The notes beneath the pieces are model-generated. The model had not been told where the DNA came from, made no database searches, and saw nothing but the letters and a program-made list of their open reading frames with translations. A stretch of 37,253 nt of DNA from Syntrophobacterales bacterium (GTDB taxonomy: Bacteria > Desulfobacterota > Syntrophia > Syntrophales > UBA8958), in NCBI GenBank assembly GCA_018056545.1, contig JAGPFL010000009.1, positions 1-37,253 on the forward strand. The letters are read 5' to 3'. The stretch's first letter is position 1; each line of letters begins with the position of its first letter. This document shows, in pieces, positions 4,433 to 25,760 of this stretch. The translations under genes were made by a program, and so were the position numbers.

Positions 4433-5530
4433 TCAGACGAGAATTGTTCGGTCCCGCCGGCGGAAATAGGCCCCGATCTCCTCTCCTTTCATCCTCCGGC
4501 CGACGATTTCGATGTCCAGGAGACGAAGACGGCCCTCACCGGTTTGGACACAAACCCGCCCCTCGTCATCGGCGAACGCCAGTCCCGGCTGGGTGCCCGC
4601 GCTCCCCACATGTTCCTCCCCTCTTTCACCGTTGGAGTCCGCGGCGAAAAGGTTTCTCTTCCCGATGACGTCATCTCCGGAAGGATCGTCGGCCAGCCGT
4701 CCCCGGGAGAGGATTTTTTCCGGTGATACCGCCGGCATCGTCTCCGGCGCCACTCCTTCACCCGCCGAAGGCGGCTCCGCCTCTTCCGGCAGTCCCCACC
4801 AGATCATCATCTTCTCCCCCTCGGGCAGAAAGGTGAAGGCCCCGGGATAGGGATCGGTGACGGCGCGGATGAGATTGTAGATCCGCCGGGCCGGCCATGT
4901 CCAGTCAATGCGTCCGTCCGCCGGTTTCCGGCCCCCGAAATAGGTGGCGCGGGCGGCGTCCTGGGGAATGCGGGGCGCCCTCCCCTTCCGGATCAGGGGC
5001 AGGACTTCGTCGAGAAGGATCGCGGCCTCCCGGCACAGCTTGCCATACAGAGTGAACGCCGTATCCGTAAAATCTATCTCCACGGCCCGCTGTCCGACTA
5101 TGTCCCCGGCGTCGGGTTTGGCGGTCATGTAATGCAGGGTGACCCCCGTTCTTTCTTCCCCGTTCACCAGCACCCAGTTTACCGGGACACGTCCCCGATA
5201 AGCCGGGAGGAGGGAACCATGGAGATTGAAAGCCCCGGCACGGGGAATCGCCAGGATCTCATTCCCGAGCAACTTACGGTAATAAAAGGAGAATATCGCT
5301 TCCGGCGCCAGGGAGGCGATCCTTGCCACCCATTCCGGGCCATTGACATCTTCGGGGCAGTTCACCGGGATGTGCCGCTCCTGTGCCCAGGAGACCACGG
5401 AGGCAAACCAGCATTTTTCATCCGGATCGTCGGCATGGGAAAACACGGCCAGGATGTCGAACCCCGCACGTTTCAGGGCCTCCAAACCGGCGATGCCCAT
5501 GTTGTGGTAAGCGAAGGCAACGGCTCTCAC
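4433..5530 (-). CDS. arnA: UDP-L-Ara4N formyltransferase (ArnA N-terminal half), with insertion
   Basis: A 365-residue protein equivalent to the formyltransferase half of ArnA, which uses N10-formyltetrahydrofolate to formylate UDP-L-Ara4N in the cytoplasm. The catalytic residues N102, H104 and D140 fall at the same positions as in E. coli ArnA, in FNLHGSLLPAYRGR and KPDAGDI. The C-terminal OB-like domain is interrupted between IWWGLPEE and FADDEGRV by roughly 60 residues rich in G, A, S, E and D that look disordered. The start codon is GTG at 5530; its GTGA overlaps the arnC stop by four bases, so the genes are coupled. Assignment is firm from the catalytic residues plus context. Confidence 0.88.
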   Translation of the reverse strand: MRAVAFAYHNMGIAGLEALKRAGFDILAVFSHADDPDEKCWFASVVSWAQERHIPVNCPEDVNGPEWVARIASLAPEAIFSFYYRKLLGNEILAIPRAGAFNLHGSLLPAYRGRVPVNWVLVNGEERTGVTLHYMTAKPDAGDIVGQRAVEIDFTDTAFTLYGKLCREAAILLDEVLPLIRKGRAPRIPQDAARATYFGGRKPADGRIDWTWPARRIYNLIRAVTDPYPGAFTFLPEGEKMMIWWGLPEEAEPPSAGEGVAPETMPAVSPEKILSRGRLADDPSGDDVIGKRNLFAADSNGERGEEHVGSAGTQPGLAFADDEGRVCVQTGEGRLRLLDIEIVGRRMKGEEIGAYFRRRDRTILV

Positions 5531-17829: not shown

Positions 17830-18567
17830 CTAACCGATGAGCGTGTAAATCTTGTAGGCCGTCATGACGACGATGAGGATGCCGAAGCCCTGCTTGATCC
17901 GGCCGCCGGGGACATAGAGGCTGGTGAGCCGGGCTCCGAGAAAGGAGCATGCGGCCCCCACGAGGAGGAGCGCAATCGTAAGCTGGAAATCGAAGCGTGC
18001 CGTAGTCAGATGGGGAATCAGGGACGAAAAGGAAGGGGGAGTGACGGCAAAGGCGTTGATCCCCGCCGCCTTCTTGGGGTCGAAACCAACGAGGATCAAG
18101 GTCGGCATAAGGAGAAAACCGGGACCGACGCCCAATAGACCGCTCAAGACGGAAATAGGGATGGCCAGCATCAGGGCCAGCTTGAAATTCTCTGTCCCCG
18201 GCCGGGCCTGGACGGGGCGGAAGAGCCGGTAGGCGAGATAGATCACCGAGATGAGGTAGGCAATCCAAACAATCATAACCGGCGTATAGAGGACCAGCCA
18301 GGCGCCGAAGGGGGCGGAGATGGTGGTGACGACGGCCAAGGTGACGGCCTTCCGCCAGTCCACGTAGCCGCTTTTGGCGAAGCCGAAAACGGCAAAGAGG
18401 GCGGTAATGCCGTTGAGGAGCAGACTAAGGGGCTGGACCTGGTGGACAAGATCGGGAAGGAAAAAGGCCAGGAAGGGTACGGCGGCAAAGGCGACGCCCA
18501 GACCGAGCATCCCCGAGGCTACGGAGAGGACGCCCAATCCGGCGACCATGATGAGCGTGGGACTCAT
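17830..18567 (-). CDS. TauE/SafE (TSUP) family transporter
   Basis: A 245-residue polytopic membrane protein of the TSUP family, whose members export or import sulfite, thiosulfate, sulfoacetate or related organosulfur ions. About eight hydrophobic segments are visible; GLLGVGPGFLLMPTLILVGF and the N-terminal GMLGLGVAFAAVPFLAFFL form the two pseudo-repeat signatures, with GINAF close after the second. GGAGGTGG precedes the ATG at 18567. It is last in a unit with thioredoxin and CcdA, so a link to reduced sulfur handling is likely. Confidence 0.85.
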   Translation of the reverse strand: MSPTLIMVAGLGVLSVASGMLGLGVAFAAVPFLAFFLPDLVHQVQPLSLLLNGITALFAVFGFAKSGYVDWRKAVTLAVVTTISAPFGAWLVLYTPVMIVWIAYLISVIYLAYRLFRPVQARPGTENFKLALMLAIPISVLSGLLGVGPGFLLMPTLILVGFDPKKAAGINAFAVTPPSFSSLIPHLTTARFDFQLTIALLLVGAACSFLGARLTSLYVPGGRIKQGFGILIVVMTAYKIYTLIG

Positions 18568-18597
18568 AGAACCACCTCCGGTGTATACAAAAGATGA

Positions 18598-19305
18598 TCA
18601 GCTTCCGAAAAAAGGATTCCCGATAAAATAAATCGCGAGGAGGATTATCACTCCTCCCGCTCCTTTGCGAAACCAGTCGCCGGCCCGTTGCCAGGCCTGG
18701 CTTTCGATCATTTTGCCCACCAGGGCCGCCGAAGTCCCCGCCGCCAGGATGGGTAGGCTGTGGCCCACGGCAAAGAGGGTAATGAGCATCAGCCCCATGG
18801 CGACCTGCTGCTGAATGGTGATGATCGCCAATATCGGGGCGATGAATCCGAAGGTGCAGGATCCGGAAAGAATCCCGTAAGTCAGTCCAAGTAAAAAGGC
18901 CCCGCTGCGCCCCTGCAGATTGAGGCGTTGGAGGATGCCGCCGCCGGATATGGAACAGGCCTGGACGCCGAACATCCCCAGGGCGACCCAGAGGAGCACC
19001 AGACCCACCAGGATCTGCCAGTATGGCCCTACATCTCCCAGCATCCGGCCCAGCAGGGCGCAGATTATCCCCACCGCCGCGATGGACAGAAACAGGCCGC
19101 CACTGAACAGGACTGCGTACAGCCCGGCCCGGCGAGGCGCCAGGACTTCCCGCTGCCCGGCCACATACGCCACCATGAGGGGAATGGAGGCGAGATGGCA
19201 GGGACTGAACAGGACGCTGATCATCCCCCAGAAGAAGCTTCCTGTGGCGGCCAGGAGGGGCGACCCCGTCAGCCATTGATTTACCGTAAGGAAAAAGGTT
19301 TCCAC
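18598..19305 (-). CDS. CcdA/DsbD-type thiol transmembrane transporter
   Basis: A 235-residue membrane protein of the CcdA (DsbD beta-domain) family that passes reducing equivalents from cytoplasmic thioredoxin to the periplasm. Six helices can be placed; the paired transmembrane cysteines are in LFSPCHLASIPLM (early helix) and GSCTFGFIAPILA (fourth helix). It begins with GTG at 19305; AGGGG overlaps the stop codon of the thioredoxin gene nine bases upstream, so the pair is tightly coupled. The exported thioredoxin is the natural electron acceptor. An extra cysteine lies in GVQACSISGGG. Confidence 0.85.
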   Translation of the reverse strand: METFFLTVNQWLTGSPLLAATGSFFWGMISVLFSPCHLASIPLMVAYVAGQREVLAPRRAGLYAVLFSGGLFLSIAAVGIICALLGRMLGDVGPYWQILVGLVLLWVALGMFGVQACSISGGGILQRLNLQGRSGAFLLGLTYGILSGSCTFGFIAPILAIITIQQQVAMGLMLITLFAVGHSLPILAAGTSAALVGKMIESQAWQRAGDWFRKGAGGVIILLAIYFIGNPFFGS

Positions 19306-19314
19306 TTTGTACCC

Positions 19315-19689
19315 CTATTTCACGCCCAGCTTCTGGAGGACGGCGACGATGGCCTCCTCGCTCATGAAGCCTTCATGGCGATATACTTCCTCACCTTTCT
19401 TGTTGAAGAATATCTGTGTGGGGATAGCGCGGATGCCGAAGCGACGGGCCGGTTGGGGATCCACCCAGACGTCGAGAAAGACGATGGCCGCCTTGCCGGC
19501 GTAACGTTTCTCCAATTTCTGGAGGATCGGCGCCATCATCTTGCAGGGGATGCACCGACTCGCCCCCAGATCCACCATGGTGACCATCCCCTTTACCGGA
19601 ACAGCCTTGGCCGGTTCGCCGGCCGCGCCGGCGCCGACCGTGGACAAAAACAAAAATATCAACAGTAGACAAAGAGCATTTCTTTTCAC
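19315..19689 (-). CDS. Exported thioredoxin-family protein
   Basis: A 124-residue thioredoxin-fold protein with a signal peptide (LCLLLIFLFLSTVGAGAAG) and the active site SRCIPCKMM; the cis-proline is in IRAIPTQIFF and the C-terminal helix is EEAIVAVLQKLG. It should act in the periplasm, reduced by the CcdA homologue encoded nine bases downstream. The predicted start is GTG at 19689 with GAGGTGG ten bases upstream. A long inverted repeat at 19773-19804 lies upstream and may regulate this three-gene unit. Confidence 0.86.
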   Translation of the reverse strand: MKRNALCLLLIFLFLSTVGAGAAGEPAKAVPVKGMVTMVDLGASRCIPCKMMAPILQKLEKRYAGKAAIVFLDVWVDPQPARRFGIRAIPTQIFFNKKGEEVYRHEGFMSEEAIVAVLQKLGVK

Positions 19690-19772
19690 CTAAAAATCCA
19701 CCTCTAAAAGCATGATTTCCTTACATTTCGTAAAGAGTGACTCTCCAATGGGGTACAGGAGAACGGGCAGAT

Positions 19773-19804
19773 CGTCATAATTTCACCGGCGGATCGTTAT
19801 GACG
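19773..19804. promoter_or_regulatory. Inverted repeat upstream of the trx-ccdA-tauE unit
   Basis: CGTCATAA (19773-19780) and TTATGACG (19797-19804) are perfect inverted repeats 16 bases apart, in the 265-base gap between the DGC gene and the thioredoxin gene. Spacing of about three helical turns between half-site centres suits a dimeric regulator. Nothing else is recognisable in this gap except a short repeat at 19854. Confidence 0.45.
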
Positions 19805-19853
19805 CCTGTTGATAAAGGGACAGGGCATGGCGGGCTTACTATCACTTTTATGC

Positions 19854-19874
19854 ATTGCTGTAAAGGGATATAGT
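19854..19874. repeat. Short repeat, copy 2
   Basis: Second copy of the 21-base element at 15206-15226 (20 of 21 identical), here between genes. No transposon-like features accompany it. Confidence 0.4.
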
Positions 19875-19954
19875 TTTACAACAAGACGGAAGGGAAATAT
19901 TCTTCCGGTTATGTTTACCGGTGGGGCATTATGCATCTCTATTAAACGGCTCGA

Positions 19955-20359
19955 TCAACCGCAACAGCTCGAAGTGGTTTTTAATCTGGGAACAGGAGAT
20001 GGGGATGACTCGCCGCATATTTCCCGTAACGCACGACGTGCCTTCTCGAGATCTTCAGACGCGATTTCTCCCCCGATGGATTTTTCAATCCCCAATTCCG
20101 TCAGGACCAGATACTTTTTCAGGGGCACCTCCGACTGTTCGAACATCAGCCGGCCGCAGCCGATGGAACAACCATCGATTAAAATGGTATCGTTTTCGGT
20201 GGCCGATCTAATAAAGCCGCGGCGACGGGCGCCGATCCCCGCCAGACAGAAGGGGTTTCCGTAACCCTCCCGCACCAGTTCCAGGGCCAAGATATTGGTC
20301 ATCTGCCCCACATTGGCGGCCCCGCAACAGGCCATAATCAGTGTTGAGGAATTTTTCAT
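19955..20359 (-). CDS. DGC-domain putative zinc-binding protein
   Basis: A 134-residue protein of the DGC family, named after its invariant residues, here DGCSIGCGRLMF near 62-73. The N-terminal MACCGAANVGQMTN and the C-terminal SSCCG add further cysteines, so eight or more possible metal ligands are present. The biochemical role of the family is not established; metal binding is predicted. Its ATG overlaps the ArsR stop by four bases (ATGA), so it is co-translated with the regulator and may bind the same metal or metalloid, perhaps as a chaperone. The function is inference. Confidence 0.8.
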   Translation of the reverse strand: MKNSSTLIMACCGAANVGQMTNILALELVREGYGNPFCLAGIGARRRGFIRSATENDTILIDGCSIGCGRLMFEQSEVPLKKYLVLTELGIEKSIGGEIASEDLEKARRALREICGESSPSPVPRLKTTSSCCG

Positions 20360-20703
20360 GGTTTCGCTCTAATCTCCTCCCTTGAAACAGCAGGGGTCTT
20401 TTCCATCAGGTCGCGGATCTCCCGGTCATCGCCGAGCCAATGTTTTAGGTTCCCCAGGATCGTCGCCGCATAAGGGCTTTTATTGCCGTCGGCCAATGAA
20501 TAATTGACCCACAGGCCATCCTTCTTGAAGGTTACCAGCCCCGCTTCTTCCAGCACCTTGAGATGTTTGGATACCGTAGGCTGGGCAATACCTAAAAGCG
20601 CCTGTATTTCACAAACACAAAGCACCCTTGCTTGCAGAATCTTGAGTAATTTAACGCGGTTCGGGTCCGAGACGGCCTTCATGACCTTGATGAAGTCTTT
20701 CAT
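20356..20703 (-). CDS. arsR: ArsR family metalloregulator
   Basis: A 115-residue ArsR/SmtB winged-helix repressor. The metal-binding motif of the alpha-3 helix, ELCVCDL in classical ArsR, appears as VLCVCEIQ; the recognition helix is AQPTVSKHLKVLEEAGLV. The two cysteines predict As(III)/Sb(III) sensing. AGGGG precedes the ATG at 20703, and a dyad (20715-20738) lies immediately upstream as its probable operator. It heads a two-gene unit with the DGC protein. It may also control the Acr3 and permease genes farther upstream, though these lie behind a separate promoter. Confidence 0.9.
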   Translation of the reverse strand: MKDFIKVMKAVSDPNRVKLLKILQARVLCVCEIQALLGIAQPTVSKHLKVLEEAGLVTFKKDGLWVNYSLADGNKSPYAATILGNLKHWLGDDREIRDLMEKTPAVSREEIRAKP

Positions 20704-21830: not shown

Positions 21831-22946
21831 CTATTTTCTGCGCCTCTTTTTTTGTGCCGCCGCTGTTGCAGGGACCATCCGCCTGATTGGGACCTCTTCT
21901 TTAGCTTCACCGAAGAGCCGTGCCCGGGAGCGGCGGGCCGCCCAGACGAGGACGAGCATGACGGGTACCTCGATAAGCGGGCCGATGACTGTGGCCAGGG
22001 CCACGGCAGGATTGAAGGCCGTAATGGCAATGGCAATGGCGATCTCGAAATCCCGCCCCGTGGAGTTGAAGGCCACGGCAACGGCATCCTTATAGTTCAG
22101 GCCCAGCTTCCAACTCACCAGATAGACAACGGCGAACATAACCCAGAAAAAAATCGTCATGGGCACGGCCATGTGGACGATCAGCATGGGGTTTTCCAGT
22201 ATCAGATCGCCCTTCAGGGCAAACATGACAATGAGGGTAAAGAGGAGCCCGATGATGGACAGGGAATCCAAATAGGTCTTGAAATGCTTGAATCCTTCCT
22301 CGCCCAGCCTGCCCACGGCGATACGCCGGGTGAGAAAACCGGCGACGAGGGGGATGCCGAGATAGAGAAGGACGCTCTCCCCGACAACAAGGACGTCGAA
22401 GGAGACGTCGCCCAGAAGCAGTTTTGCATACACCGGGATCAGGAGCATCTGGCAGATCGAATTGATGGCCACCAGCACAATGGCCAGGGCGTTGTTGCCC
22501 AAAGACAGGAATGTGAAGACGATAACCATGGCGATACAGGGTGCCAGGCCATACAAAACGAGGCCGATGTAGAGATCGGGATAGGCGGACAGAAAGATCT
22601 TCGCCAACAGGAGCATGAAGAACGGCGCGACAAGATAGTTGAAGACCAGAACAATGATCAACTGTTTCGGCGAGGCGGCGGCCTTACCGAGATCCTCGAT
22701 CTTCACGTTCGTCATGGCGGGATAGATCATCAAAAAAAGGCCGATCACCACGCCGAGGGCGAGGCTGTTGGCCAGGGTGAACTGATAGGTCCCTGAAAAG
22801 ATGGCCTTGATGGCATCAATGGGGGGCGTCAGGGCAAAGTTCGAAATGCCGTACAACTTGCCGATGGCAATGCCCACGGCCATGCTGACGACAACAAATA
22901 CGGGTAGAAAACGAAAATCCTGCACTTTCTCCAAATACTTCCTCAT
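21831..22946 (-). CDS. acr3: Arsenite efflux transporter Acr3
   Basis: A 371-residue ten-helix membrane protein of the Acr3 family (bile acid/arsenite/riboflavin superfamily), which expels arsenite using the membrane potential. Characteristic parts are YPAMTNVKIEDLG (75-87), GLAPCIAMV containing the essential cysteine (C137) and FNSTGRDFEIAIAIAI in a late helix with its conserved glutamate. The basic tail QKKRRRK is cytoplasmic. AAAGGAG precedes ATG 22946. It is downstream of a selenoprotein and three thioredoxin-like genes, unlike common ars operons, which suggests coupling of efflux to thiol/selenol chemistry. Family assignment is firm. Confidence 0.92.
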   Translation of the reverse strand: MRKYLEKVQDFRFLPVFVVVSMAVGIAIGKLYGISNFALTPPIDAIKAIFSGTYQFTLANSLALGVVIGLFLMIYPAMTNVKIEDLGKAAASPKQLIIVLVFNYLVAPFFMLLLAKIFLSAYPDLYIGLVLYGLAPCIAMVIVFTFLSLGNNALAIVLVAINSICQMLLIPVYAKLLLGDVSFDVLVVGESVLLYLGIPLVAGFLTRRIAVGRLGEEGFKHFKTYLDSLSIIGLLFTLIVMFALKGDLILENPMLIVHMAVPMTIFFWVMFAVVYLVSWKLGLNYKDAVAVAFNSTGRDFEIAIAIAITAFNPAVALATVIGPLIEVPVMLVLVWAARRSRARLFGEAKEEVPIRRMVPATAAAQKKRRRK

Positions 22947-23010: not shown

Positions 23011-23034
23011 CCGGGCCCCTCAACGAGGGGCCGG
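23011..23034 (-). terminator. Hairpin between the selenoprotein gene and acr3
   Basis: CCGG-CCCCTC pairs with GAGGGG-CCGG around AAC, with one bulged G. It starts ten bases after the selenoprotein stop. There is no T-run on the minus strand, so it may attenuate or protect the transcript rather than end it. Confidence 0.45.
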
Positions 23035-23043
23035 ATTCACCGG

Positions 23044-23289
23044 TCAAGTGCCGCCAAAAAGGGGAACAGCGCCCCGCAGAGTTGCTTCGCCTTGGAAGCC
23101 GACGGTCACCCTGCCTCCGTCCACGATTACTGGAACCTGCCGTTTGCCGCCCGACAGGGCCAGCATCTCCGCCAGTTTGGCAGGATCTTCGTCGACATTA
23201 AAATAGATCGCCCTGTCCCCGTAGGCCGCCCGAGCCTGGTTGCAGAAGGGTCAGGTGTCTGTTCCGTAAATAATAATCTTTGGCTCCAT
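23044..23289 (-). CDS. Glutaredoxin-like selenoprotein (Uxx-star type), in-frame TGA
   Basis: From ATG 23289 to TGA 23044 the minus strand reads an 81-residue protein interrupted by a single in-frame TGA at codon 13 (23251-23253). The sequence around it is IIIYGTDT-U-PFCNQARAAYG, so the TGA replaces the first cysteine of a glutaredoxin CPFC, giving UxxC. Downstream homology continues without a break: RAIYFNVDEDPAKLAEML, then SGGKRQVPVIVDGGRVTVGF with the cis-proline VPV. This matches the small glutaredoxin-fold group called Uxx-star (seleno)proteins as I recall it. AAGGAG seven bases upstream gives a strong start. A hairpin suitable as a bacterial SECIS begins 13 bases after the TGA. Selenocysteine would act as the nucleophile, probably in the cytoplasm. 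Alternative: a nonsense-mutated Cys homologue. Confidence 0.87.
23223..23237 (-). promoter_or_regulatory. Candidate SECIS hairpin
   Basis: AGGC and GCCT pair around the seven-base loop TCGGGCG, which contains the guanines expected in a bacterial SECIS apical loop. The loop begins 17 bases after the in-frame TGA, inside the usual window. An extra CC/GG pairing below a bulge can lengthen the stem. Folding was judged by eye only. Confidence 0.45.
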
Positions 23290-23307
23290 AACCACGCTCC
23301 TTGAATC

Positions 23308-23403
23308 TCAAGTCACAGAGGGTGATATATTCTTCGGATCAATCAAGGCATACTCAACGACCTCTTGAAGATCGGCCACTTCGACCATCTCAATGCCGTC
23401 CAC
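23308..23403 (-). CDS. Possible small ORF or gene remnant upstream of the selenoprotein
   Basis: A frame from GTG 23403 to TGA 23308 encodes 31 residues beginning MDGIEMVEVADLQEVVEYAL and ending with NISPSVT. AAGGAG lies 12 bases before the GTG. The frame is also open further upstream (RSLGFKEQALPVDGIEMVEV), where it looks a little like the C-terminal end of Lon- or RadA-type P-loop proteins, so it may be the decayed tail of a lost gene. The stop is 18 bases before the selenoprotein start, so the two could be co-translated. I do not recognise it with confidence. Confidence 0.3.
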   Translation of the reverse strand: MDGIEMVEVADLQEVVEYALIDPKNISPSVT

Positions 23404-23461
23404 GGGTAAGGCCTGCTCCTTGAAACCGAGCGATCGTTTGGGGCTCCACCCGGAACGGATA

Positions 23462-23698
23462 CTAATTCTTTTTAAGCCAGGAAATGATTTCCGCCTTGGT
23501 CGGGATCTTTCCTGCGCACTTTACCTGCTCGTCGATAATCAGGGCCGGGGTGGAAAAAACGCCGTAGGTGGCGAATTTTTTTATATCTTTTATCTTTTCC
23601 AGGGTCGCATCCATCTTCAACTCTTCCAAGGCCTCTTTCACCACGTTCTCTACAGCGTTACACCTGGCACAACCGGGGCCCAAAACTTTGATATTCAT
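23462..23698 (-). CDS. Small thioredoxin-like protein (CARC)
   Basis: A 78-residue protein of the minimal thioredoxin/glutaredoxin type known from archaea and anaerobes (MTH895/TM0996-like). The active site is GPGCARC (C10, C13), preceded by a first strand; the cis-proline is in VFSTPALIIDEQV and the chain ends with the helix KAEIISWLKK. It lacks a signal peptide and is cytoplasmic. AAGGAGG eight to ten bases before ATG 23698 supports the start. It is the third of three consecutive thioredoxin-like genes downstream of a permease; such proteins often accompany this permease family. Substrate unknown. Confidence 0.88.
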   Translation of the reverse strand: MNIKVLGPGCARCNAVENVVKEALEELKMDATLEKIKDIKKFATYGVFSTPALIIDEQVKCAGKIPTKAEIISWLKKN

Positions 23699-23732
23699 AT
23701 CAATTTCCTCCTTAAATCCGTTTTTGCTTTGT

Positions 23733-23757
23733 CGCGCCCGGGGCTATCCCGGGCGCG
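23733..23757 (-). promoter_or_regulatory. Very strong intergenic hairpin between two thioredoxin genes
   Basis: CGCGCCCGGG (23733-23742) and CCCGGGCGCG (23748-23757) are perfect ten-base inverted repeats around a five-base loop. It lies two bases after one thioredoxin gene and 35 bases before the start of the next. There is no T-run on the transcribed strand, so a role in RNA stability or partial termination is more likely than full stop. Confidence 0.6.
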
Positions 23758-23759
23758 GG

Positions 23760-23999
23760 TTATTTCTCCGCAACGATGATCGCCTTAAGCTCTTCTACCG
23801 AAGGAATCTTCCCTGCAACCACTATTACCCCGTCGATAATCACCGCGGGGGTAACCCTTACTCCCAGGTCCCGAAACCTCCTCACATCGAATTCATGGGA
23901 GATATCCGCGTCGATTCCCAATACCGCGCACGCATCCGTTACATTCTTTTCCGTTACATGACATCTTCCGCACCCTGGTCCGGCCACGACGATCTTCAT
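23760..23999 (-). CDS. Small thioredoxin-like protein (CGRC)
   Basis: A 79-residue minimal thioredoxin-fold protein, paralogous to its neighbours: GPGCGRCHV (C10, C13) after the first strand, cis-proline in VRVTPAVIIDGVI and C-terminal helix VEELKAIIVAEK. A histidine directly follows the CxxC motif. GAGGAGG precedes ATG 23999. It is cytoplasmic by lack of signal peptide. It differs enough from the CARC protein (23462-23698) to suggest an old duplication with separate partners. Its role in the permease cluster is inferred only from position. Confidence 0.88.
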   Translation of the reverse strand: MKIVVAGPGCGRCHVTEKNVTDACAVLGIDADISHEFDVRRFRDLGVRVTPAVIIDGVIVVAGKIPSVEELKAIIVAEK

Positions 24000-24073
24000 T
24001 TTTCTGCCTCCTCAGAGGACAATAAAGCCTCATGCTGTAAACAAGTTCATCATGAAGCCAAGGAGTATTGCCT

Positions 24074-24574
24074 TCAAGACCTGGCGGTTTCCGCCTCCCG
24101 GAGCCACGCCTTGATCTGTTGCCGTGTCGGGGTGGTGCCTACGGAAACGACCTTGCCGTTGACGATCAGGGCCGGTGTCCCCATGACCCCGTAGCGGGCA
24201 ATAGCCCGGAGGTCGTCAACGTGGATCAACTCCCCGGGAAGCTGCAAGTCCGCCAGGGCCTCCCGGACGTCTCTTTCCAACTGGGTGCAGCGGGCGCAGC
24301 CCGGTCCCAGGACGATAATCTGCAGGCCCGTCAGCGGTTCCTCTGCAACCTCCTGCCCTAGAAACCTCCGGAATTCCCTGGTGAGGGCTGTTCCGTAAGA
24401 CCCTTCGGCCCGTCGGGGTATATAATTGCACTGCCCGGTCCGGCGCAGGATTTCCCTGGCGATTTCCTCATCGGAGCCTCCGGCAAAATCCGCAGCCATC
24501 TCCTCCATAATTTTCTGAAGCCCCACAATGCCCACCAGGTTGCCGTTTACCCGGATTTGTTTAATGTCAGCCAT
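24074..24574 (-). CDS. Thioredoxin-like protein with an N-terminal helical domain (CARC)
   Basis: A 166-residue two-domain protein. Residues 85-160 are a minimal thioredoxin (GPGCARCTQLE with C93 and C96; cis-proline in VMGTPALIVNGKV). Residues 1-80 form a separate domain that begins IKQIRVNGNLVGIVGLQKIM and continues with YIPRRAEGSYGTALTREFRR; I have seen this N-terminal part fused to such thioredoxins in anaerobes, but know no function. The N-terminal domain could recruit a partner such as the permease encoded upstream. No strong ribosome site precedes ATG 24574. It lies 136 bases after the permease gene. Confidence 0.85.
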   Translation of the reverse strand: MADIKQIRVNGNLVGIVGLQKIMEEMAADFAGGSDEEIAREILRRTGQCNYIPRRAEGSYGTALTREFRRFLGQEVAEEPLTGLQIIVLGPGCARCTQLERDVREALADLQLPGELIHVDDLRAIARYGVMGTPALIVNGKVVSVGTTPTRQQIKAWLREAETARS

Positions 24575-24710: not shown

Positions 24711-25760
24711 CTACATGATGAAATTGCCGAAGAACCAACCGACAAGCGTCCCGAGGATAACTATAGATATTACATAAACAATGGCCTTCTTGACTCCGAA
24801 GACGCGGCCGATGGCGATCCAGTTCGGCAGGCTCAAGCCCGGACCGGTGAGGAGGAGGGTCAGGGCGGGCCCCTTGCCCATTCCGAGTTTCATCAGGGTA
24901 TCGACAAACGGCGCCTCGGTCATCGTCGCGAAATAACTGATCGCCCCGATCATCGTCGCCAGAAATGACGCCATGAGGCCGTTACCCCCAAGCCAGCTCT
25001 GGATCCACTCCTCAGGGAGGAGCTTGCCGATGACGCCGACCAGAAATACGCCCAAAAGCAGCAGGGGGAAGATGATCTTGACGAACCACCAGCTCTCCCG
25101 GAGCCAGCCGGCGATTTCGTCCCTGCCGAGGGCCTTGACGGCATAAACGGCCAAAACCGCCGTAGCCAAACCCCAGATGATGATCTTCTGCCCGTAGGGT
25201 CCCGTCTGCCCGATGTAATTGGGAAGCAACAGGGAAAAAAGGATGAGGAGCATCAGAATCAGATGGGGCCGCTTCACGATGCCTTCCCGTTCTTCACCGC
25301 TCTGAAAGGCGCCGACGGTTTCCCTTTTTTCCTTGCCGAAGAAGAAGGTCATGATGCCCCCAACGATAAAAGCCATAAGGAGAGCGGCGACAACCCGGTA
25401 AACGACGATGTCGTACCCGAGGATGTTGCCCGTATAGATCAGGGAGAGGATGTTGGCCGACGGCGCCACCCAGAGGACGATGAAGGCCACGCCCACGGCG
25501 GCGCCGCTGTAGTAAAGGCCGCTGGAGACGGGGATCACCGTGCAGGAACAGGCAGCGACAAAGAAACTGGCAACGCTGGCCATAGAGAACGATTTGAGTT
25601 TGTCGGCTTTTTCTCCCAGAACGGTAAGAATGGCCTGCTGGTTGATGAAGGCCACCATCGCTCCGGCCAGCAGAAACGCCGGCACCAGGCAGGTCAGAAC
25701 ATGTGTGGCCACGTAGTCTTTAATTGCCAGCAATCCGGCGACGATCAATGATTCGATCAT
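24711..25760 (-). CDS. ArsP/UPF0718-type permease
   Basis: A 349-residue permease with about eight to ten membrane helices, member of the DUF318 superfamily. FVAACSCTVIPVSSGLY (C71, C73) is the characteristic cysteine site, followed by WVAPSANILSLIYTG; the second half repeats the fold with AISYFATMTEAPFVDTLM and TGPGLSLPNWIAIGR. ArsP, which exports trivalent organoarsenicals, belongs here, but so do other metal exporters. Unlike the permease at 10000 it has no cysteine-rich loop. AAGGAG eight bases before ATG 25760 and a strong promoter at 25878-25905 mark it as the first gene of the thioredoxin-selenoprotein-Acr3 cluster. Confidence 0.87.
   Translation of the reverse strand: MIESLIVAGLLAIKDYVATHVLTCLVPAFLLAGAMVAFINQQAILTVLGEKADKLKSFSMASVASFFVAACSCTVIPVSSGLYYSGAAVGVAFIVLWVAPSANILSLIYTGNILGYDIVVYRVVAALLMAFIVGGIMTFFFGKEKRETVGAFQSGEEREGIVKRPHLILMLLILFSLLLPNYIGQTGPYGQKIIIWGLATAVLAVYAVKALGRDEIAGWLRESWWFVKIIFPLLLLGVFLVGVIGKLLPEEWIQSWLGGNGLMASFLATMIGAISYFATMTEAPFVDTLMKLGMGKGPALTLLLTGPGLSLPNWIAIGRVFGVKKAIVYVISIVILGTLVGWFFGNFIM

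Follow-up and report, generated by a model that had tools for sequence, protein, structure and literature searches.

The gene described here lies on the minus strand of a 37,253-nucleotide stretch of DNA from a Syntrophobacterales bacterium (the whole of which we term the window), between genes related to those of arsenic resistance (Table 1). Immediately upstream of it are three ArsE-type thioredoxin-like genes in tandem (23462-24574, minus strand), and directly downstream is a gene for an Acr3-like arsenite exporter. The product of the latter is divergent, scoring below the TIGR00832 cut-off of 282.8 bits and above that of SBF. The initial annotation placed the gene between thioredoxin-like genes and acr3, and the flanking genes agree with this, with the qualification that the exporter reaches only 256.5 bits against this profile. 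The examined part of the window yielded no arsC-like gene. Two further observations concern the same neighborhood. Between the target gene and the tandem, at about 23308-23460 (minus strand), there is an open frame of ~50 codons (IRSGWSPKRSLGF...) with no Pfam match, which resembles the remaining 3' end of a gene since lost. Downstream of the ArsR gene, at 17830-20359 on the same strand, there are genes for a DGC-domain protein, a thioredoxin and a TauE/SafE permease, along with a probable DsbD/CcdA-type membrane gene, whose tested ORF has no Pfam match.

Table 1. Coordinates of the selenoprotein gene, its internal features and its neighbors in the window.
Feature	Coordinates	Strand	Evidence or remark
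ArsP_1-type permease	24711..25760	-	PF03773, 232.9 bits
ArsE-type thioredoxin-like protein with N-terminal extension	24074..24574	-	TIGR00412, 87 bits (cut-off 62)
Second thioredoxin-like protein (Thioredoxin_3), like its ArsE-type neighbors	23760..23999	-	PF13192, 73.6 bits
Third, ArsE-type thioredoxin-like protein	23462..23698	-	TIGR00412, 102.7 bits
Ribosome-binding site AAGGAG	23297..23302	-	Sequence; upstream of the ATG at 23289
UXX-star family 1 gene, long form	23020..23289	-	89 residues, predicted Sec at 13 and 82; NF041114, homologues, codon table
Predicted first Sec codon, TGA	23251..23253	-	Residue 13, in U-P-F-C
SECIS-like hairpin 1, AGGCT(CGGGC)GGCCT	23223..23237	-	14-28 bases past the first TGA; five pairs, five-base loop
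13-residue insert, residues 66-78	23056..23094	-	Alignment; long clade only, before GGTU; model confidence low at 68-77
Predicted second Sec codon, TGA	23044..23046	-	Residue 82, in G-G-T-U
SECIS-like hairpin 2, GGCCCCTC(GTT)GAGGGGCC	23014..23032	-	Loop begins 20 bases past the second TGA
Apparent true stop, TGA	23020..23022	-	Where loop and stem of hairpin 2 meet; place and identity differ among relatives
Acr3-like arsenite exporter	21831..22946	-	TIGR00832, 256.5 bits (below cut-off); SBF above cut-off
ArsR/SmtB-type regulator	20356..20703	-	NF033788, 88 bits (cut-off 55)

When TGA is translated as selenocysteine, the frame reads MEPKIIIYGTDTUPFCNQARAAYGDRAIYFNVDEDPAKLAEMLALSGGKRQVPVIVDGGRVTVGFQGEATLRGAVPLFGGTU, followed by PVNPAPR and a TGA. 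In profile searches this readthrough protein matches NF041114, the UXX-star selenoprotein family 1, with 89.9 bits (cut-off 72; 9.2e-26), the broader NF041212 with 75.6 bits (cut-off 66) and the Pfam Glutaredoxin domain PF00462 with 40.3 bits (cut-off 22.9; 3.7e-10). The matches to NF041114 and the Pfam domain are far above chance. Those to UXX-star families 2 (NF041211) and 3 (NF047338) reach 50.9 and 51.9 bits against cut-offs of 100 and 97. The fold of an AlphaFold model built with 48 homologues (mean pLDDT 78) is that of a glutaredoxin, as are the best solved structural relatives. The NF041114 profile, with 70 positions, seems to end just ahead of the C-terminal Sec. A search of plasmids returned a single match, a Pseudomonas glutaredoxin, and Rfam at its gathering thresholds gave no match within the window. 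The ATG start with its strong ribosome site, the glutaredoxin-like frame with Sec in place of the first cysteine of CPFC and the membership in the Uxx-star group had all been proposed in the initial annotation and stand; the ATG is at 23289 on the minus strand, and the ribosome site is AAGGAG at 23302-23297. Its product of 81 residues with a single TGA needs correction, with codon 82 as the predicted second Sec codon and a frame that extends to the TGA at 23022-23020.

A set of 78 homologues gathered from 155 genomes of the same order has TGA at site 13 in 61 sequences and TGT or TGC in 14, the site being cut or shifted in three. A tree for which both active-site columns were masked indicates at least six exchanges between Sec and Cys at this site. 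All five pairs of hairpin 1 form in 52 of the 58 distinct sequences with Sec as opposed to 3 of the 14 with Cys (Fisher test p=1.1e-6, uncorrected for relatedness); sliding the partner strand by 1-3 bases reduces the count to zero, while re-dealing the partners among the sequences yields at most 43. Among the Cys forms that retain the hairpin are two from congeners of the window organism (L069 and L073), as would be expected of recent Sec-to-Cys changes. When the RNA around codon 13 was folded as a single sequence, no signal emerged (z from 0.08 to 1.0), and the recognition of this hairpin therefore required comparison across homologues. Accordingly, the SECIS element that had been placed 13-31 bases after the TGA gains support from comparison, at 14-28 bases, and none from single-sequence folding.

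The TGA at codon 82 is present in all 75 homologues that were scored and, by eye, in two more outside that set (L089 and L116). It is followed by a U-x-x-stop arrangement in 57 homologues, in which the stop is TGA in 29, TAA in 23 and TAG in five; the short forms defined below likewise use all three kinds of stop after the C-terminal Sec. The second codon past codon 82 encodes valine in 68 of the 75, with third bases distributed as G27, A24, C15 and T2, and the first encodes glycine in 42 (C16, G13, A9, T4); as judged from these codons, selection at the protein level acts on translation beyond codon 82. Among the homologues a hairpin whose small loop contains G begins ~17-22 bases past this TGA. 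Over 73 distinct sequences its mean stem score is 16.3 versus 7.1 (sd 0.35) in shuffles, and compensated changes are seen in L015 and L017. Three homologues (L058, L060 and L061) have Cys at site 13, retain the TGA at 82 and end with TAA or TAG two residues on. We interpret codon 82 as a second Sec codon, conserved more strongly than codon 13. In those matching loci from 395 genomes of the phylum that were read, there is no homologue with Cys at site 82, every GGxU-ending member having a TGA, and the site is thus without the classical Cys/Sec pair. The name 'UXX-star', which had earlier been tied to the U-PFC motif, probably derives instead from the U-x-x-stop at the C-terminus. In the branch of the window the tail after U82 has grown to PVNPAPR, whereas other long forms keep U-x-x-stop. 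Since relatives terminate elsewhere, with TAA, TAG or TGA, the terminal TGA of the window gene behaves as a true stop. Codon 90 was also considered as a third Sec site and rejected because its place and identity vary among relatives.

The genome of the window organism (G000; 82% complete, 130 contigs) has one strong match for tRNA-Sec with the anticodon TCA. Its SelD (L134, on contig C73) is itself a selenoprotein with an in-frame TGA in the motif AGUACK. There are two SelB-like genes, on contigs C92 (L136) and C61 (L137), which are 41% identical and the second of which begins at a contig end. A fragment-like second SelB match over or near the cut-off occurs also in a congener (G148), suggesting that members of the genus may often have two SelB genes. 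Thus, the sel genes, which the initial annotation had singled out as a check on its reading, are represented by tRNA-Sec, selB and selD, with selA not found in this 82%-complete assembly. As selA is present in each of the seven congeneric genomes (and in 137 of the 155 of the order), its absence is probably due to a gap in the assembly.

Two readings would deny one or the other TGA its role as a Sec codon. The gene might be a pseudogene, with the TGA at codon 13 having arisen by nonsense mutation: it does have an in-frame TGA, and homologues elsewhere seem damaged, one by loss of the frame ahead of the C-terminal Sec (L067) and one by an in-frame TAA (L089). We assign this practically no weight, as the conservation of the TGA, the frame and the hairpin across many genera is decisive against it, and the Sec machinery is present in the genome. 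In addition, ten close relatives (70-89% identity) retain both TGAs and the reading frame, bearing out the initial view that this is not a decaying gene. If only codon 13 specified Sec, the TGA at codon 82 would be an ordinary stop and the hairpin after it a terminator or a chance structure. TGA being a common stop codon and the lack of any Cys homologue at site 82 would sit well with this. However, an ordinary stop does not agree with a TGA that is invariant while the later stop varies freely among the three codons, nor with a valine at +2 whose third position is free. The hairpin, too, is conserved at a fixed distance, is not called as a terminator, has no T run and in some relatives closely precedes the next gene. 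We accordingly regard this reading as very improbable, and it is highly probable, from the comparisons among homologues, that both UGAs encode Sec.

A single branch with support 100/100 separates the long forms (28 rows) from the short forms (45 rows) in a tree from which the insert, the tail and the active-site columns were excluded. The fourth position of the active-site motif is C in most long forms (UPFC or CPFC), which also carry the 13-residue insert ahead of GGTU, and T in the short forms. The genome of the window organism carries one of each, the long form of the window (L051) and a short form (L072). The latter paralogue, at 4940-5152 (plus strand) of that locus on contig C41, reads UPFT...GGTUGV-stop and has two Sec codons. 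One long-form genome (G073) consists of a single closed contig, and may hence come from a cultured strain; in its protein, CPFC...GGGU, the first site is occupied by Cys and the C-terminal Sec is retained.

The genomic contexts of the two clades differ. An Acr3-type gene is found no more than ~6 kb away in 18 of the 23 long-form genomes as against one of 50 short-form loci (Fisher test p=1e-11, with related loci counted as independent), and L075, the sole 'short' locus with Acr3 nearby, is grouped by the tree with the long forms. Beside the long forms, Acr3 may be on either side and is on the same strand; in five relatives it scores 446-462 bits against the cut-off of 282.8. For the same 23 genomes and 50 loci, an ArsP_1 permease is nearby in 15 versus two (related loci again counted as independent), ArsE-type thioredoxins in 11 versus none and ArsR in ten versus one. 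The genes adjoining the long form include arsC-like ones in eight of the 23; near three of the five relatives there are phosphatase-type genes whose best match is arsC_pI258, below its cut-off. The 50 short-form loci have as neighbors genes for cNMP-binding proteins (25), pyruvoyl-dependent arginine decarboxylase (21) and rubrerythrin (15), as at L072, L073 and L100. The core claim of the initial annotation, a hidden Uxx-star selenoprotein within an arsenic-resistance block, is supported.

We propose that tRNA-Sec and SelB would decode each UGA, guided in each case by its own hairpin with a loop starting 19-20 bases downstream. The product would be an 89-residue glutaredoxin-fold protein with U13 in the U-P-F-C active site and U82 in the C-terminal G-G-T-U. 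Working alongside the ArsE-type thioredoxins, the Acr3-like exporter and the ArsP-type permease, the protein might then use its two selenols (U13, U82) and one thiol (C16) to bind As(III), or another metalloid like it, or to reduce it, ahead of export. Taken whole, this proposal, which covers both the two-Sec long-form protein and its action on the metalloid, has, in our estimate, a probability of about 0.7. A role with arsenic or a metalloid, to which the genome context lends support and for which selenol chemistry would be the presumed basis, is likely in its own right.

An alternative has the two-Sec protein serve as a dedicated electron donor for an arsenate reductase or another enzyme of the operon, without binding arsenic itself. 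The glutaredoxin fold, the arsC-like genes that adjoin some long forms and the frequent thioredoxin-like neighbors are in line with this. On the other hand, no arsC-like neighbor of the window copy was identified, and a plain glutaredoxin needs no second Sec at its C-terminus. We see it as a serious possibility, albeit with the balance tilting against it. The protein could also serve in general redox chemistry or in defence against peroxide, its place in the arsenic block being accidental or owed to co-regulation only. The short paralogue near rubrerythrin and cNMP-binding genes would be compatible with such a function, but the recurrence of Acr3 beside the long clade, in the same orientation on one side or the other, makes this improbable. 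Of the versions in which arsenic is bound, one would make the long clade a selenium-based arsenic carrier: a site of two selenolates and one thiolate would hold As(III) and pass arsenite to Acr3, while the short paralogue with T16 would have two ligands and another task. The idea is attractive in that the two Sec sites are joined by C16 in the long clade; nevertheless, we consider such a carrier rather unlikely. A three-ligand site of U13, C16 and U82 is, taken by itself, similarly doubtful. Model confidence is low in the stretch before U82, and a contact of this residue with the active site is thus putative.

We found no established function for the UXX-star family. The presence of a clade tied to Acr3 beside a sister clade that is not so tied offers a direct test of the purpose of the family's selenocysteines, with arsenic as the candidate substrate. 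The neighborhood of the short forms, with its cNMP-binding, arginine decarboxylase and rubrerythrin genes, constitutes a second setting of UXX-star family 1. There is also a lesson for gene prediction: annotation programs would break or overlook such a gene, and the recovery of one hidden Sec codon may still leave the protein truncated at another.

The closest parallels are found in several known selenoprotein systems. Structures of the Grx1 type of Clostridium sp. OhILAs / C. oremlandii (cGrx1, 7c10, 7c12) are among the best solved matches to the window protein, with which they share the glutaredoxin fold and a Sec (or Cys) as the first residue of the active-site motif. That protein has one Sec only and, to our knowledge, lacks the C-terminal GGxU motif. 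UXX-star families 2 and 3 comprise related glutaredoxin-like (seleno)proteins, although the window protein scores below their cut-offs. As regards metal or metalloid handling, a link has been drawn for the Sao selenoproteins and the SaoE efflux transporter (Haft and Gwadz, 2023, as relayed in PMC13188914). These selenoproteins belong to families other than that of the window protein, and the ArsP_1 permease of the window is only weakly similar to SaoE (108.8 bits versus a cut-off of 325). The nearest relative is UXX-star family 1 itself, NF041114, which appears as 'distant Grx-like protein 1' in PMC9312934 and PMC13188914. Table 1 of the latter gives its motif as UxxT with the number 2 in what appears to be the Sec-count column, and the double-Sec nature of the family is therefore not new. 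With this family the window protein has in common the curated score, a Sec in a Grx-type motif and another near the C-terminus. It differs in having UxxC in place of the listed UxxT, a 13-residue insert before GGTU, the tail PVNPAPR where the family has two residues and a stop, and an arsenic-operon context. By its motif, insert, tail and context the window protein seems to be a new form within this known family, and the arsenic-linked clade to which it belongs looks new as well.
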